From the NCBI GenBank assembly GCA_024224995.1, contig JAAENB010000237.1:1-34502 (forward strand): 34,502 bases of DNA, in the 5' to 3' direction. Origin of the DNA: a bacterium (GTDB taxonomy: Bacteria > Spirochaetota > UBA4802 > UBA5550). Position 1 is the first letter of the stretch; each line of letters starts with the position of its first letter. Positions 26,696 to 33,995 of the stretch are shown here, piece after piece. The notes under the pieces were generated by a model that did no database searches, was not told where the DNA came from, and saw only the letters and a list, made by a program, of their open reading frames with translations. Made by a program: the position numbers and the translations under genes.

Positions 26696-26727
26696 AGCTG
26701 AGTGTTTCTTTATGGAAATACTCAGCT
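26696..26727. terminator. hairpin between convergent genes
   Basis: A 13-base stem with one mismatch (G/A), AGCTGAGTGTTTC (26696-26708) with GAAATACTCAGCT (26715-26727), lies just after the phospholipase gene and overlaps the 3' end of the convergent alarmone-synthetase gene. It is probably bidirectional, with a T-run at 26747-26755. Confidence 0.65.
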
Positions 26728-28011
26728 ATTGCCTATCCCGGAAATATTTTTTTTTAAATCTATTCCCGATTGAATCATAACTTTCAGCTTCTTCGCTTCA
26801 ATGGAGTCCGGATCAATTTCTAAAGCAACATCGCAATCTTCAAGGGCATTTATATAATCATTCATCTCAAAATAAACCTGTGCCCTGTTAAAATAAGGAT
26901 AAAATCTGTATGGATTTATCTTAATGCACAAATTGAAATCTTCAAGAGCACACTGATAGTCATGATTGACTTTATTTACTATTCCTCGATAGTATAAGGC
27001 CTTATAATTATTTTTATCAAGATCAAGAGCAGTAGAAAAATCAAATATTGCATGCTCATAATCAGATTCAGCAAATCTTGCCATACCTCTATGAAGATAA
27101 ACAATAATTTTTATAGTATCCGGCAGATTGTATTGTAATATCTGTGTATACACTGAAATAGCTTTTGAAAAATTGTTGTTATTATGAGCCTCAAGCGCCT
27201 CCATAAGGAGGTGATCCACACTATCCTCAACGGTATTCCCGGGTGTTTTTTCCGGTATTGAATCATTGTTTTTGTTTTTTTTCGCAACAGCAGGGCGGCC
27301 CGATGCTAATAAATCATAATCAAAACCATACGCCTCTTCTTCAACTTTTTCAAAAAATGCTTCCCGTCTTTTTTTTAATTGAACTTTCATTTTTTTTTGG
27401 TGATCCAGTATTTCCTGAAAAAGAATATCGGACAATGTCAGGTTCGCGTTTAATGCCGCCAGTTTTCGTTTTAATGGTTCATCAAAGGGGCTAAATTCAG
27501 TTTTATAAAACAATGAATGCTCCACTTCCGCCCAGGCATCCTGCAGCGCGGTACAGACCTGCACCTCACAGATGAGATTTTCAGGTTCTGTATGTTGTGA
27601 AAGAATTTTTATTGGGATCTTGATTAAAAAATGTATTGATGAATATCCAAATTCCTTAAATGAATGATCAATTCCTTTATGTTCATATTCTATTAATTCA
27701 TATTTTTCTTTAATAACAGATTCAATAGTTTTTAGATTCTCCTGAAAGGGGCAAATAATTCTCAGTCCCAGTTTGTCATTGATTGAGACTGATTTTCCCG
27801 TTGCTTCAACACTATTCATTTTTTTTAAAAGCTTGTCGTAATAACTATCAAAAGATTTAACTCGTGTCTTTATGGCGGGATTGAATGATTTGACTCCAAT
27901 GTTCTCCCTCATATGCTGAAGAAGATCAAAAAGAATATTTTCATACCGTTCTCGAGTTGACTCATATTCCTTTTCTAATTTCTTTCGATTTGGAATCCCT
28001 GTTTTTTTCAT
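26722..28011 (-). CDS. RelA/SpoT-type (p)ppGpp synthetase domain fused to TPRs
   Basis: A 429-residue cytoplasmic protein. Residues 10-215 are an alarmone synthetase domain: TRVKSFDSYYDK (49-60), NDKLGLRII (78-86), FGYSSIHFLI (121-130) and CEVQVCTALQDAWAEVEHSL (148-167). There is no HD hydrolase domain, so it is a synthetase-only enzyme like the small alarmone synthetases. One change is Cys153 where relatives usually have Arg or Lys (E-x-Q-I-R-T). A Lys-rich helical linker follows. Residues 265-420 hold about four TPRs (AISVYTQILQYNLP, AIFDFSTALDLDKN, ALEDFNLCIKINP, ALEDCDVALEIDP), giving a protein-interaction platform. The gene begins 7 bases after the 561-residue pseudo-kinase gene, so the two form an operon. 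Confidence 0.88.
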   Translation of the reverse strand: MKKTGIPNRKKLEKEYESTRERYENILFDLLQHMRENIGVKSFNPAIKTRVKSFDSYYDKLLKKMNSVEATGKSVSINDKLGLRIICPFQENLKTIESVIKEKYELIEYEHKGIDHSFKEFGYSSIHFLIKIPIKILSQHTEPENLICEVQVCTALQDAWAEVEHSLFYKTEFSPFDEPLKRKLAALNANLTLSDILFQEILDHQKKMKVQLKKRREAFFEKVEEEAYGFDYDLLASGRPAVAKKNKNNDSIPEKTPGNTVEDSVDHLLMEALEAHNNNNFSKAISVYTQILQYNLPDTIKIIVYLHRGMARFAESDYEHAIFDFSTALDLDKNNYKALYYRGIVNKVNHDYQCALEDFNLCIKINPYRFYPYFNRAQVYFEMNDYINALEDCDVALEIDPDSIEAKKLKVMIQSGIDLKKNISGIGNS

Positions 28012-29905: not shown

Positions 29906-32155
29906 TTAATCCACTAATAATTGGGTCACGGCAGCTGCATTAATTGCCCATTGTTGATCATACACCTCATCGGCGTCCGGAGTCTCCATTATTGTCAGCC
30001 CCTGGGCCTCTGCTTTTATAAGCAGCAGGTTCCCGATATTCAATTTGCTGTCCAGTTTTTTGAGCAAACTCTCCACTGCTTCCGTATCAAGGTTCTGAGC
30101 TACCTGGCCGTAAAACGGCATTTCAAGCCATATAATTTCCCCGCTTTCTATTTCCAGAACGCCGAATGCCAATCCCTTTGTTAGCCCCCGGGTGATCCTG
30201 ACCTGGTGCTGCACACAGGAGGGATCATATGCCACTCCTGTCTTTTTAGATATTTTCATTGGATGTTTGCTCTCCATCCAGCCAACAACCAGGTTGGGGG
30301 TGATTTCTCCGCTGCTGTAGGAGTTACAGGTAAAGACCGCGTACCCGGCCTCCCTTTTTTGTAGTTTCTTTATATTAATATCAATATATTCGGCAGTACC
30401 CACGTTATGCGGGATCCTGCGAATATCTCCACTGTGCTTACAGCCGGGAATAACCAGGCTGCCAAAAGAATAAATGTCACTGTGCTTCTTATAGGTAATA
30501 AAACAGCTCAGGTCCATATCCAGCGGCTGGGCAGGCAGTCCTTCGCCCCATTGCATAAATAAGCGCACCCTGCTCCCCTCTACGGCGAAACGGGTTCCCA
30601 TTAAGACTGAAGGTAAATCCTGTACCGATTCGCTGCGGTCTCCAATTGGTACGGGCATTTTAAAAAGCATTGGATCGATATATATGCTTTTACTGCCGGT
30701 TCCTATGCGGGCGAATCTATTTTTCATGGCCAGCAAACAGAGATTTTCAATGTCCTGTTTCATCTCCTCCAGCTCGCCTTTTGTATAGAGCTTTAGCAGT
30801 TTATTATAGGGAATATTTTTGCTGATCCCGCCCAGGGCTTTTACGGTACGGTTTCCTCCGTGGGTAAAATAATTTTCCGCGTACATGCTGAGCGTAAAGA
30901 GCAGCCGTGCCGGAACATGATCTATTATATCAAAAAAAGCCGGTATCACTTCACCTGTTCCAAGCCGGAGCATGTTGGTAAATAAGGTTCTCGCGAATAT
31001 GCCGGGCCTTTGTTTAAGCCTGTTCACTGTATTTTTTATATCAGCATTTTTGCGGTATTTCTCAAGCTCTCCTTGCCACACGGTATATTTTTCAGTATAG
31101 AATAGATCCAGTAATTTTTTTAAGTGCTCAAAGCCTTCTCGTTTTGAGTATTCAGCCAAACGGAGCGCCCGGATAAAGCGGACCCACATCCCTCTTTTGG
31201 GATGCATTATTTCACACATCTGTTCAACACTCATGTCCATGGAATTAAGCCACCCCGCAGCGAGGCGGCAGTCTTTTCTTCCGTATTTCAGTTTCAGCTC
31301 ATCTTTTGATGCCTGTCTTGCCCGGGTCATTTCGTCTTTGATCTGCTCCAGGCTTACGTCCAGGTATACTGCCCTTGCGTTCGACTTTTTTCGTTTTATA
31401 ATTGTTTTGGGGTCTACTATTTGCAAAAACCCCGTATGTTTGTACCATAAATAGCGCAATATATCGTTTGGTGTTTTAAACTGATTCCGGAGATCTTCAG
31501 CCCGTCCCTGCTCTACAAAAAGATCTAAAACTACCATAAGAGTTTCTTTCATGCAAATCTCTACTTCCGGCAGCGGCAGATCCGTTAACAATAATTTGAG
31601 GCTCTCTATTTGTGTGGCATCAAGTGCTGTTCTCGAAGTTAACAGGTCCGTAAAACATTGGAACACATCGGGCTCGTGCCAGAGTTCCAGTATTTTCAGC
31701 TTGCTTCCCTGGCCGTAATTTTCAATTTTGCCAAACTCAAAAGGAGTTCCGCAAAAAGAGCAGCCGTTATACCGCTCAAGGGGAAAGGTGTTTTTCGGAA
31801 TCGTATGGCCGCAGGGTAATGTTGTACCTTCCGTGTTAAATACATTGGCATAAAACGTAATAATATGATGAGTCAGGGTTTCACCCGTGGGTACGTCCCA
31901 GCCTTTTACCAGGGGCGCCCAGTTTTTCTCCACGCCCATTACCTGCCGAAATTGTTCCAACAGCTTTTCCCGGAACGCGGGAGTAGTGCGGTTCAAGGCG
32001 TACAGGAGTGCTTCGCTTACACCAAATCCAAGTTTTGCCAGGTTTGCTGCCAGAATTGACGCGGCGCCGCTTACAGGCCCGGGATTACTTTGTAATAAAG
32101 ATTCGGGAATATAGACTGCCTGGTGCCGAAGACTGACTGTTTGTAACTCGTTCAT
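29906..32155 (-). CDS. TerD-like-domain protein with N-terminal zinc ribbon
   Basis: A 749-residue cytoplasmic protein started at ATG 32155; the longer frame from 32281 would translate the tRNA-like gene and is rejected. A helical N-terminal part contains a zinc-ribbon-like site, CGH (115-117) and CSFC (132-135). The middle (about 150-510) is helical and unrecognised, with many basic residues. The C-terminal region (about 515-640) has PLDMDLSCFITY, PGCKHSGDIRRIP, GTAEYIDINIKKL and FTCNSYSSGE, close to the TerD fold with its D-x-D-L-S and HSGD Ca-binding sites. TerD-type proteins are linked to tellurite or stress responses and phage defence, but the biochemical role is open. It stands alone on its strand, between the repeat U1 region and the tRNA-like gene. 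Confidence 0.72.
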   Translation of the reverse strand: MNELQTVSLRHQAVYIPESLLQSNPGPVSGAASILAANLAKLGFGVSEALLYALNRTTPAFREKLLEQFRQVMGVEKNWAPLVKGWDVPTGETLTHHIITFYANVFNTEGTTLPCGHTIPKNTFPLERYNGCSFCGTPFEFGKIENYGQGSKLKILELWHEPDVFQCFTDLLTSRTALDATQIESLKLLLTDLPLPEVEICMKETLMVVLDLFVEQGRAEDLRNQFKTPNDILRYLWYKHTGFLQIVDPKTIIKRKKSNARAVYLDVSLEQIKDEMTRARQASKDELKLKYGRKDCRLAAGWLNSMDMSVEQMCEIMHPKRGMWVRFIRALRLAEYSKREGFEHLKKLLDLFYTEKYTVWQGELEKYRKNADIKNTVNRLKQRPGIFARTLFTNMLRLGTGEVIPAFFDIIDHVPARLLFTLSMYAENYFTHGGNRTVKALGGISKNIPYNKLLKLYTKGELEEMKQDIENLCLLAMKNRFARIGTGSKSIYIDPMLFKMPVPIGDRSESVQDLPSVLMGTRFAVEGSRVRLFMQWGEGLPAQPLDMDLSCFITYKKHSDIYSFGSLVIPGCKHSGDIRRIPHNVGTAEYIDINIKKLQKREAGYAVFTCNSYSSGEITPNLVVGWMESKHPMKISKKTGVAYDPSCVQHQVRITRGLTKGLAFGVLEIESGEIIWLEMPFYGQVAQNLDTEAVESLLKKLDSKLNIGNLLLIKAEAQGLTIMETPDADEVYDQQWAINAAAVTQLLVD

Positions 32156-32196: not shown

Positions 32197-32319
32197 GGAG
32201 ACAGGTGGGACTCGAACCCACGACCTTCAGATTACAAAGTTGAAGTAAGTCGATGATTGACTGCTTTCGCGGTAATTTCATGACTGAGCTGATGCTCTAC
32301 CAGCTGAGCTACTGTCTCC
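32197..32319 (-). tRNA. tRNA-like gene with an extra ~49 bases in the anticodon arm (anticodon possibly TGT, Thr)
   Basis: Read on the minus strand: acceptor GGAGACAG, TA, D-arm GCTCAGCTGGTAGAGC, A, then an abnormally long anticodon region of 66 bases where 17 are normal, AGGTC, T-arm GTGGGTTCGAGTCCCAC and acceptor CTGTCTCC. Acceptor, D and T stems pair perfectly. The 3' part holds TTTGTAA, which would place anticodon TGT. If about 49 bases are removed the molecule is 74 long, a normal tRNA length, but the 5' half of the anticodon stem then pairs poorly (CTTCA/TGAAG pairs only with an 11-base loop). The last acceptor pair G-1:C73 is His-like. No CCA is encoded after a discriminator. It has a good promoter. 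It could be a disrupted pseudo-tRNA or an intron-bearing one. Confidence 0.6.
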
Positions 32320-32326
32320 ATGAAAA

Positions 32327-32355
32327 ATGCTATGTGTTGTAATACTATTTGTCAA
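32327..32355 (-). promoter_or_regulatory. promoter of the tRNA-like gene
   Basis: On the minus strand TTGACA (32355-32350), a 17-base spacer, TAGCAT (32332-32327), then 7 bases to the first tRNA base at 32319. Spacing is ideal for sigma70. Confidence 0.75.
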
Positions 32356-32396
32356 TATAAAACCACTGATTTTTATTAAATCAGTGGTTTTATATT
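32354..32396. terminator. 19-bp perfect inverted repeat
   Basis: AATATAAAACCACTGATTT (32354-32372) pairs with AAATCAGTGGTTTTATATT (32378-32396) around a 5-base loop. It sits between the tRNA promoter and the ATPase repeats. It could be a terminator or an insulator, or part of the repeat cluster. Confidence 0.6.
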
Positions 32397-32504: not shown

Positions 32505-33995
32505 ATGAGAAAAATAATTGGAAGGACGCATGAACAGAAAATTTTTTCACAGCTGTTTGAATCAAATGAATCGGAATTTATCGCAGTTCATGGGCGTAGA
32601 AGAGTTGGGAAAACATATTTAATAAGTGAATTTTTTAAGAATAAAGGAACTTATTTTGAATTAACAGGGCAATTGAAAATCAACATTTCCGAACAATTGG
32701 ACAATTTTTCCCTTTCTATTAAAGAGACTTTTGCTCTTCCTCTTGAGATAAAAAAACCCGGGTCATGGAAAGAGGCATTTGGCCAATTGAAAATTATTAT
32801 TGACCAACAGGATAAAAAGCAAAAAATAATTATTTTTTTTGATGAAGTTCCATGGCTTGCTTCAAAGAGATCCGGTTTCATTAGTGCACTTGAGTATTTC
32901 TGGAACACCTGGGCATCGAGAAAAAACAATATTAAAATAATCGTTTGTGGTTCAGCAGCTTCCTGGATGATAAGAAACTTTGTAAATTCCAAAGGAGGCC
33001 TGCACAATAGACTTACCGCATCCATTCGCCTTATGCCCTTTGATCTTTCCGAAACAAAAGAGTATCTTGAGTATAGAGGGATACATTTTAGTGACAGGCA
33101 GGTCCTGGATATTTACATGATCATGGGCGGAATACCTCATTACCTGAAAAAAATAAGAAAAGGATTATCGGCAGTACAAAATATCAATGAAGTATGTTTT
33201 AAAAAAGACGGATTCCTTACTACAGAGTTCGACAGGCTCTATGATTCTTTATTCGATAATTCAAGCAGCTATAAAACAATAATAACAGCTCTTACGAAAT
33301 CCCGGAAAGGGATGCTTCGCAGCGAACTCCGAAAAACAATAAATGCTACCCCGGGGGGAACACTTGCCAGAATGCTGTCGAACCTTGAAGAAGCTGGTTT
33401 CATCACCGGGCGGCAGCAATTTAACAAGAAAATAAAAGAAATGAGATATCACCTTTGCGATGAGTACAGTTATTTTTATATTAAATGGATAAAAAATATC
33501 GACAGAAGTGTTTTAATTAATCCAAAATCAAATTATTGGAATTTAATTTCGGAAACGCAGGCCTGGAAAATATGGTCCGGGTATATTTTTGAAGAGATAT
33601 GTATAAAACATTCTCATTTGATTAAAAAAGCTCTGGGGATAAGCGGCGTAATCACAAGAAGTTCCGCCTGGAATTACAGCACGGCTAAAAAAGCAGCATC
33701 AACGAAAGGAGCCCAGATTGACTTGCTGTTTGACCGCAATGACAGGGTAATTTCAATTTGTGAAATAAAGTGTCATAACAGTCCATTTCAAATCGATAAA
33801 AAATATTCAGAAGTGTTAAAAAATAAAATATCTGTTTTTCGTGAACAAACGAAAACCAATAAAAGTATTTTTCTTGTTTTTGTAACAACCATGGGAATGA
33901 AAAAAAATGATTACTATGACGAACTTGTTGACAATGAGGTGACACTGAAAGATCTATTCGCAGAGGGGCTCGCGGGTCTTGACGATGATTTATGA
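32505..33995 (+). CDS. AAA-type ATPase with C-terminal DUF234 (PD-(D/E)xK-like) nuclease domain
   Basis: A 496-residue protein. The N-terminal ATPase_2 domain has Walker A GRRRVGKT (30-37) and Walker B IIIFFDEVPWL with Asp113-Glu114, then a sensor-like IIVCGSAASWM and LHNRLTASIRLMPF. A winged-helix region (about 265-320: LRSELRKTINATPGGTLARM) follows. The DUF234 part (about 325-460) ends with GAQIDLLFDRNDRVISICEI and Lys, the D...ExK layout of PD-(D/E)xK nucleases. Members of this archaeal and bacterial ATPase family are often multicopy and poorly understood. A GAGGTG lies 2 bases from the ATG, so spacing is short. The gene is framed by repeat pairs U2-U3 and U4-U5, and U4 overlaps its stop codon. 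Confidence 0.88.
   Translation: MRKIIGRTHEQKIFSQLFESNESEFIAVHGRRRVGKTYLISEFFKNKGTYFELTGQLKINISEQLDNFSLSIKETFALPLEIKKPGSWKEAFGQLKIIIDQQDKKQKIIIFFDEVPWLASKRSGFISALEYFWNTWASRKNNIKIIVCGSAASWMIRNFVNSKGGLHNRLTASIRLMPFDLSETKEYLEYRGIHFSDRQVLDIYMIMGGIPHYLKKIRKGLSAVQNINEVCFKKDGFLTTEFDRLYDSLFDNSSSYKTIITALTKSRKGMLRSELRKTINATPGGTLARMLSNLEEAGFITGRQQFNKKIKEMRYHLCDEYSYFYIKWIKNIDRSVLINPKSNYWNLISETQAWKIWSGYIFEEICIKHSHLIKKALGISGVITRSSAWNYSTAKKAASTKGAQIDLLFDRNDRVISICEIKCHNSPFQIDKKYSEVLKNKISVFREQTKTNKSIFLVFVTTMGMKKNDYYDELVDNEVTLKDLFAEGLAGLDDDL

Follow-up and report, generated by a model that had tools for sequence, protein, structure and literature searches.

The contig JAAENB010000237.1 of an uncultured bacterium placed in the Spirochaetota, 34,502 bases long and analyzed here as a whole (the window), carries on its minus strand at 32197..32319 a tRNA-like gene with the anticodon UGU and a strongly enlarged anticodon arm. 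We propose that this locus probably encodes an unpermuted YrlA-like Y RNA which mimics a tRNA and bears a Ro60-type module of a kind termed class B below in its anticodon stem. Direct support comes from the tRNA body and from a layout held in common with a set of phage RNAs. These phage RNAs are in turn linked to Ro60-like genes, occur also in circularly permuted versions, and combine a relaxed base 73 with conserved anticodon loops.

The Rfam tRNA model RF00005 aligns over its full length to positions 32318-32197 of the minus strand (52.9 bits, E 8.7e-09) and accommodates an insert in the anticodon arm. Eight of eight acceptor pairs are formed if the extra pair G-1:C73 is counted (5′ strand 32312..32319, 3′ strand 32197..32204, an exact inverted repeat), as are four of four pairs of the D stem and five of five of the T stem; the D arm (32294..32309) and the T arm (32205..32221) were placed by alignment to the tRNA model and to a model of the class A RNAs introduced below. 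An earlier reading of the locus from its letters (the sequence-only reading) had noted perfect acceptor, D and T arms and an anticodon arm of 66 bases instead of the usual 17, and both observations are confirmed. The 49 extra bases interrupt the 5′ strand of the anticodon stem, whose nucleotides 27-30 (32289..32292) have their partner strand at 32227-32230. The series U33-UGU-A37-A38 is complete 3′ of the insert, within the loop UUUGUAA that together with the 3′ stem strand UCUGA occupies 32227..32238. With the insert removed, one C31-U39 mismatch, or else an 8-base loop, would leave the arm slightly imperfect.

Of the features of a functional tRNA-Thr(UGU), G1:C72, U33, UGU and A37 are present, but the A or U at position 73 is replaced by a C that pairs with G-1; normal phage Thr tRNAs possess T or A at this position in 26 out of 26 cases. 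The end pair had already been regarded as odd for Thr, and it fits the phage relatives, as base 73 is relaxed among the insert RNAs in general. The whole locus folds more stably than shuffled versions of itself (z -2.94), a value which the tRNA arms alone could explain. ARAGORN, run on the window, reported no tRNA at 32319-32197.

To find relatives, a Thr(UGU) pattern allowing approximately 13-73 extra bases was scanned over genome contigs, with one genome for each of 84,980 species. The 13 stretches obtained were, by inspection, three introns from Aenigmatarchaeota and ten partial or overlapping tRNA copies; no gene like that of the window was among them, although a pattern this strict cannot show that bacteria lack such genes. 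The three archaeal tRNA-Thr(UGU) genes (L003, L009, L013) contain introns of 20-24 bases around nucleotides 29-31 and were labeled Ser, unknown and His by ARAGORN. In viral contigs the same pattern gave seven stretches, of which four were identical in sequence; every one has its insert between approximately nucleotides 28 and 31. A generic pattern in viral contigs returned at least 120 stretches; with the 19 and 71 stretches from two motif patterns, the collection grew to at least 109 distinct sequences. After ten rows were dropped, the matches listed comprised 70 sequences with the motif C(A/U)GC(A/G)A (class A), 21 class B-like sequences including the window, and eight others; five further rows were dropped to arrive at a set of 15 class B sequences plus the window. 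If the filter on the anticodon arm was omitted, at least 135 distinct insert RNAs were obtained, of which 99 allow a five-pair anticodon stem (70 class A, 15 class B, 14 in neither class). This test took the best of 12 splits, so that stems may arise by chance, and only two of the 14 unclassified RNAs have U33. We thus count at least 85 distinct viral tRNA-like genes with inserts of 40-70 bases at the same place, 70 of class A and 15 of class B, where the counts refer to distinct sequences and not to independent events.

The two classes differ in their inserts. In class A, the 5′ stem strand, mostly ending in CG, is followed by a lead rich in A, then by a hairpin that mostly has 6-8 base pairs, and finally by ACAGCAA or ACUGCAA. 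This hairpin covaries: in an alignment of 46 of 58 class A sequences the column pairs 37:56 and 38:55 were changed on both sides with the pair kept in 21 and 23 of the 46 sequences, and broken in three each. In class B, a stem P1 encloses an inner part with a small hairpin, and its 3′ strand is directly followed by UACUUC. P1 was placed by hand, since MAFFT with RNAalifold misaligned its 5′ strand and called no insert stem in class B; the four outer pairs of the hand-placed stem break at the first pair in L145 and L151 and at the fourth in L108. The 3′ boundary of the insert floats relative to the motif.

The insert of the window (32240..32288, with a boundary ambiguous by one base) folds like those of class B. 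It lies in the 5′ strand of the anticodon stem and contains a P1 made of AGUCAUGA (32278..32285) and UCAUCGACU (32248..32256) with one bulge, directly followed by UACUUC (32242..32247). Inside P1, a small hairpin GC-GAAA-GC (P2, 32263..32270) is preceded by UUACC, and most phage class B inserts fold similarly. UACUUC is invariant in all 16 aligned class B rows (15 phage sequences and the window), where one must keep in mind that TTACTTC was the search term for part of this set. The second pair of P1 is G-C in the window compared to C-G in 15 out of 15 phage sequences. A stem of four base pairs flush to UACUUC with a loop of at least 24 bases occurred in 19 out of 100000 dinucleotide shuffles of the insert, by a descriptor that was set up after the stem had been seen. 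The class A model R1 scores the window RNA with 49.1 bits; this score stems mostly from the tRNA body and is therefore no test of the insert.

Several of the viral loci could be assigned to known phages. L210 is Cronobacter phage GAP32 (100%), and its insert-bearing tRNA-Lys was matched over 74-100% in Xanthomonas phage XbC2, several Erwinia phages, Pectobacterium phage CBB and Serratia phage BF. Two out of three phage records examined annotate it as a tRNA-Lys of 122-125 bases, while in GAP32 it is not annotated as a tRNA. L019 is the crAss-like phage cr106_1, with an unannotated homologue in crAss001 and PhiCrAssBcn1. The Rfam tRNA model recognizes the crAss001 homologue with 46.6 bits, and its anticodon loop, judged by eye, apparently consists of nine bases, which speaks against decoding. 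ARAGORN missed the insert RNAs in the seven viral loci tried first.

A link to Ro60-like proteins is evident in these phages. The crAss001 RNA adjoins gp96, a TROVE protein (PF05731, 5.5e-13), and a passage in PMC10136315 reports gp96 as an early gene. A profile grown from gp96 detected relatives in 57 loci. Considering whole contigs, a Ro60-like gene is found on 31 of 38 insert-bearing phage contigs (L142, one of the 38, is a false member) compared to two of 20 comparison contigs, which are mostly shorter; these two, L032 and L036, both possess a permuted tRNA-like RNA, in L036 as judged by eye. A Fisher test on viral loci (Ro60-like open reading frame, ORF, in 37 of 82 versus 18 of 115) gave p 1e-05 and is diluted, because several of the 18 carry members missed by the class rule and the flanks of many loci are short. 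If RNA and Ro60-like gene share a locus, they are on the same strand in 64 of 64 class A, four of four class B and 20 of 20 other cases. In class A the median distance between them is 513 bases, with 61 of 64 within 2 kb; 35 of the 70 class A loci show no Ro60-like ORF in the stretch examined, and in GAP32 the gene is located approximately 200 kb from the insert RNA.

The partner proteins are of more than one kind. All four class A partners that were scanned consist of DUF2828 and DUF7788, and the class B partner of L104 is a divergent TROVE protein. A profile of all Ro60-like kinds together matches Xenopus Ro60 (1yvp, 6.9e-69). DUF2828 alone found nothing at E 0.01 in a sequence search against the PDB; the 11 best structural matches of its AlphaFold model (pLDDT 81) are Ro60/TROVE structures (E 1e-7 to 1e-6, TM 0.44-0.54, rmsd 9-12). 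A canonical TROVE plus vWA_Ro60 partner was seen in L130. L130 and L055 carry GC-rich inserts near Ro60-like genes with loops lacking U33, and perhaps represent a third class. RNA ligases exceeded the cut-off on some of the 38 contigs (RtcB 4, Rnl1 4, RNA_ligase 16), and a phage-encoded RtcB or Rnl1 was rejected as a general ligase with four contigs each. In four contigs a gene of the RNA_ligase family is situated at most 0.8 kb from the Ro60-like gene, including GAP32 (105133-107445).

YrlA (RF02553), a bacterial Y RNA that mimics a tRNA, and the window RNA both combine a tRNA-like body with a further stem attached through the anticodon stem. According to the Rfam alignment, YrlA is circularly permuted, has a closed acceptor and lacks an anticodon hairpin, whereas the window RNA and most phage RNAs follow the usual order of a tRNA, retain an anticodon hairpin whose loop is intact, and carry another module. 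Permuted forms are nevertheless present among the phages. A scan for the order T arm, acceptor, short loop, acceptor, D arm gave 18 places, 11 of them with a class A or class B motif; seven of these 11 keep a five-pair anticodon stem, with a choice of split that favors U33. Some of the other seven places are ordinary neighboring tRNAs. In the permuted acceptors a short loop, for example UUCG or AUCG, joins the two strands, and the insert-bearing and the permuted forms have a common junction. Circularly permuted tRNA-like genes with closed acceptors were noted in L117 (9575, Serratia phage BF), L167, L184, L144, L111, L172 and L169. Out of L140, L175, L167 and L213, only L167 is matched by the YrlA model, at 572-684 and over the full length (48.3 bits, E 1.4e-08, below the gathering score of 69); this RNA lies 189 bases from a Ro60-like gene. 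As phage RNAs in normal and in permuted order were both found, two topologies exist, and the window RNA belongs to the unpermuted one.

The phage insert RNAs keep their anticodon loops but not their acceptor ends. U33 and R37 occur in 65 and 67 of 70 class A and in 15 and 15 of 15 class B RNAs, and A34 in two and one, respectively. For base 73, the base expected by us for five anticodons, an expectation of our own that the normal tRNAs bore out, is present in only 27 of 55 insert RNAs compared to 66 of 68 normal tRNAs that share these anticodons and come from the same viral loci (p 2e-10). CCA is encoded in seven of 80 insert RNAs versus 78 of 289 normal tRNAs, and -1:73 pairing is mildly more common in the insert RNAs (65 of 85 versus 124 of 217); the T33 found in 217 of 217 normal tRNAs was forced by the filter. 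Kept loops together with relaxed acceptor ends indicate selection on the anticodon arm more than on charging. The most frequent anticodons of the insert RNAs are Lys(UUU) with 20 and Asn(GUU) with 17 out of 99, which are targets of several anticodon nucleases; both amino acids are common among normal phage tRNAs, too (28 and 31 of 289). Anticodons ending in C36 are rare in insert RNAs (four of 85, versus 52 of 217 normal tRNAs).

We infer that the insert RNAs are mimics. In the simplest version, a Ro60-like protein would carry them as decoys or docking RNAs for anticodon-arm enzymes. For the window this would mean a small non-coding RNA which imitates a whole tRNA, holds a structured module inside its anticodon stem, and does not serve as an ordinary Thr tRNA. 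The module would bind a Ro60-like protein, and the anticodon arm may be retained as bait or mimic for proteins such as anticodon nucleases. A more far-reaching version, which we advance only tentatively, is that large-genome phages, and in the present case a spirochaete-like bacterium, produce uncharged RNAs of tRNA-like shape, permuted or not. Ro60-like rings would hold them through the module in the anticodon stem, and their intact loops would act as decoys that sequester host anticodon nucleases or other anticodon-loop enzymes.

Several observations weigh against an assignment of the window locus to such mimics. Its place in class B depends on a single stem and a single short motif, matches in phage records covered at most 37% of the window RNA, and the Rfam YrlA model gave no match to it up to E 10. 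Adjacency to a gene of the Ro60 family, a mark of Y RNAs that many phage relatives display, is not seen here: the profile found no Ro60-like ORF in the 34.5 kb of the window, which extends only 2.2 kb on one side of the RNA. The letters CCA come directly after the seventh acceptor pair, without room for a base 73. Within the phage set, seven of the 38 insert-bearing contigs (including the false member L142) have no detected Ro60-like gene, and the same is true for the comparison contigs L051 and L086 with their permuted-looking RNAs. The conserved U33 and R37 would be explained at least as well by real, spliced tRNAs.

This leads to the main rival, a genuine tRNA gene interrupted by a tiny intron. 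In this model the insert is excised, the continuous 3′ strand of the anticodon stem serves as a splint that brings the two 5′-strand ends together, an RNA ligase seals them, and the Ro60-like protein assists splicing. We consider this rather unlikely, yet it accounts for the 99 of 135 distinct insert RNAs with a possible five-pair stem, 85 of them from the two classes, whose loops are canonical and whose anticodons vary widely. The single junction used by insert-bearing and permuted forms recalls the interrupted or permuted tRNA genes of archaea and algae, and the ligase genes close to Ro60-like genes in four contigs would suit the sealing step. The relaxed base 73 and the closed acceptors of the permuted forms caused us to demote this explanation from working model to rival. 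It is further at odds with the apparent nine-base loop of crAss001, the patchy distribution of ligases, the floating 3′ boundary, the C31-U39 mismatch retained in the window, and the ease with which a stem may appear by chance, as the 14 unclassified RNAs illustrate. In the archaeal and algal genes interruption and permutation also meet at one junction; the present RNAs differ from them in that no splicing endonuclease motif was seen, base 73 is relaxed, and the carriers are phages and a bacterium. An intron of the archaeal or eukaryotic type, cut by a splicing endonuclease at a bulge-helix-bulge, is hardly credible in the window: while the same pattern scan did find the three Aenigmatarchaeota introns near nucleotides 29-31, the named relatives of window proteins are bacterial, and the folds, judged by eye, lack a 4-bp helix flanked by two 3-base bulges at the junctions. 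Group I introns of bacterial and phage tRNA genes occupy the same arm and are longer than 200 bases, compared to the 49 bases here, and no group I core in the window was matched by Rfam, in line with the sequence-only reading.

A plain pseudogene, in which a chance 49-base insertion inactivated a Thr(UGU) tRNA, appears improbable. It would be compatible with a single locus on a contig lacking a Ro60-like gene, with the imperfect 31:39 pair and with a C73 that is odd for Thr. The acceptor, D and T arms are intact, however, and the position, stem and motif of the insert are those of the phage family. As the phage relatives show structured modules at the same place linked with Ro60-like proteins, their inserts are not random debris. 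From the three options offered by the sequence-only reading, the tRNA-derived regulatory RNA consequently fits best, the killing insertion fits less well, and the tiny intron is the chief competitor.

The flanks of the gene permit a proposal for its transcription. The sequence TTGACA-17-TAGCAT (32327..32355, minus strand), whose -10 box ends seven bases before G-1, had been described as an intact promoter; it is present as described, but it matches the consensus no better than chance, with two such matches found in the AT-rich stretch compared to 1.7 expected. From this position transcription could plausibly begin with G-1, leaving the RNA with no 5′ leader. On the other side, a run of nine T begins four bases past C73 (32184..32192, minus strand) and is a possible terminator tract where transcription may end; a terminator scan called none. 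An inverted repeat of 19 bp without mismatches and with a loop of five bases (32354-32396) is located between the promoter-like sequence and the next gene and may be a terminator or the end of an element.

Parts of this picture touch on published work. The rsr-yrlBA-rtcBA RNA repair operon, as outlined in passages of PMC7790460, also combines a Ro60 family protein with a tRNA-like RNA; here the partner contains DUF2828 in the four class A proteins scanned, and RtcB is present on only four of 38 contigs. The same passages voice a similar idea, with YrlA as a competitive inhibitor of an anticodon nuclease. For jumbo phages, parts of PMC7824862 treat ROT/TROVE proteins as RNA-binding, with a tRNA-like partner in cells, and parts of PMC7765460 mention YrlA in several phages; in these parts of both papers neither the phage insert RNAs nor DUF2828 are described. 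Among the matches listed in full-text literature searching, none describes tRNA genes with such inserts. Likely Y RNAs with tRNA-like domains near Ro60 were reportedly found by Chen et al. in 2014 in many bacterial and phage species. The novelty is limited in so far as the earlier Y RNA literature may cover unpermuted forms with intact anticodon loops. The phage Ro60-like and DUF2828 proteins gain candidate RNA partners, and a class of tRNA mimics becomes visible that ARAGORN overlooked in the window and in the first seven viral loci and that phage records label tRNA-Lys or leave blank. The role of bacterial and phage Ro60-Y RNA particles becomes testable in cultured phages, namely crAss001 and PhiCrAssBcn, both growing on Bacteroides intestinalis, as well as GAP32 and Serratia phage BF. 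If the decoy idea were true, it would amount to a new counter-defense, and DUF2828 would gain a function.

With regard to the contig, one conserved window protein has named relatives from Spirochaetota and Leptospira near the top of its list, and another has a Deltaproteobacterium there. Eight window proteins compared to PHROGs included no phage structural gene. The gene downstream of the RNA (29906-32155, minus strand) encodes a RING/TerD-like protein of 749 residues that is approximately 60-66% identical to mostly Bacteroidota proteins (120 listed); as a hidden Ro60 it was rejected on account of this similarity and the lack of a TROVE or vWA match. Its Bacteroidota-like sequence beside a protein pointing to spirochaetes suggests that horizontal transfer may have taken place. 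Further genes in the vicinity are an ATPase_2/AAA gene (32505-33995, plus strand), whose family also occurs on plasmids of many genera (118 records), and a RelA/SpoT-domain protein with TPR repeats (26722-28011, minus strand).
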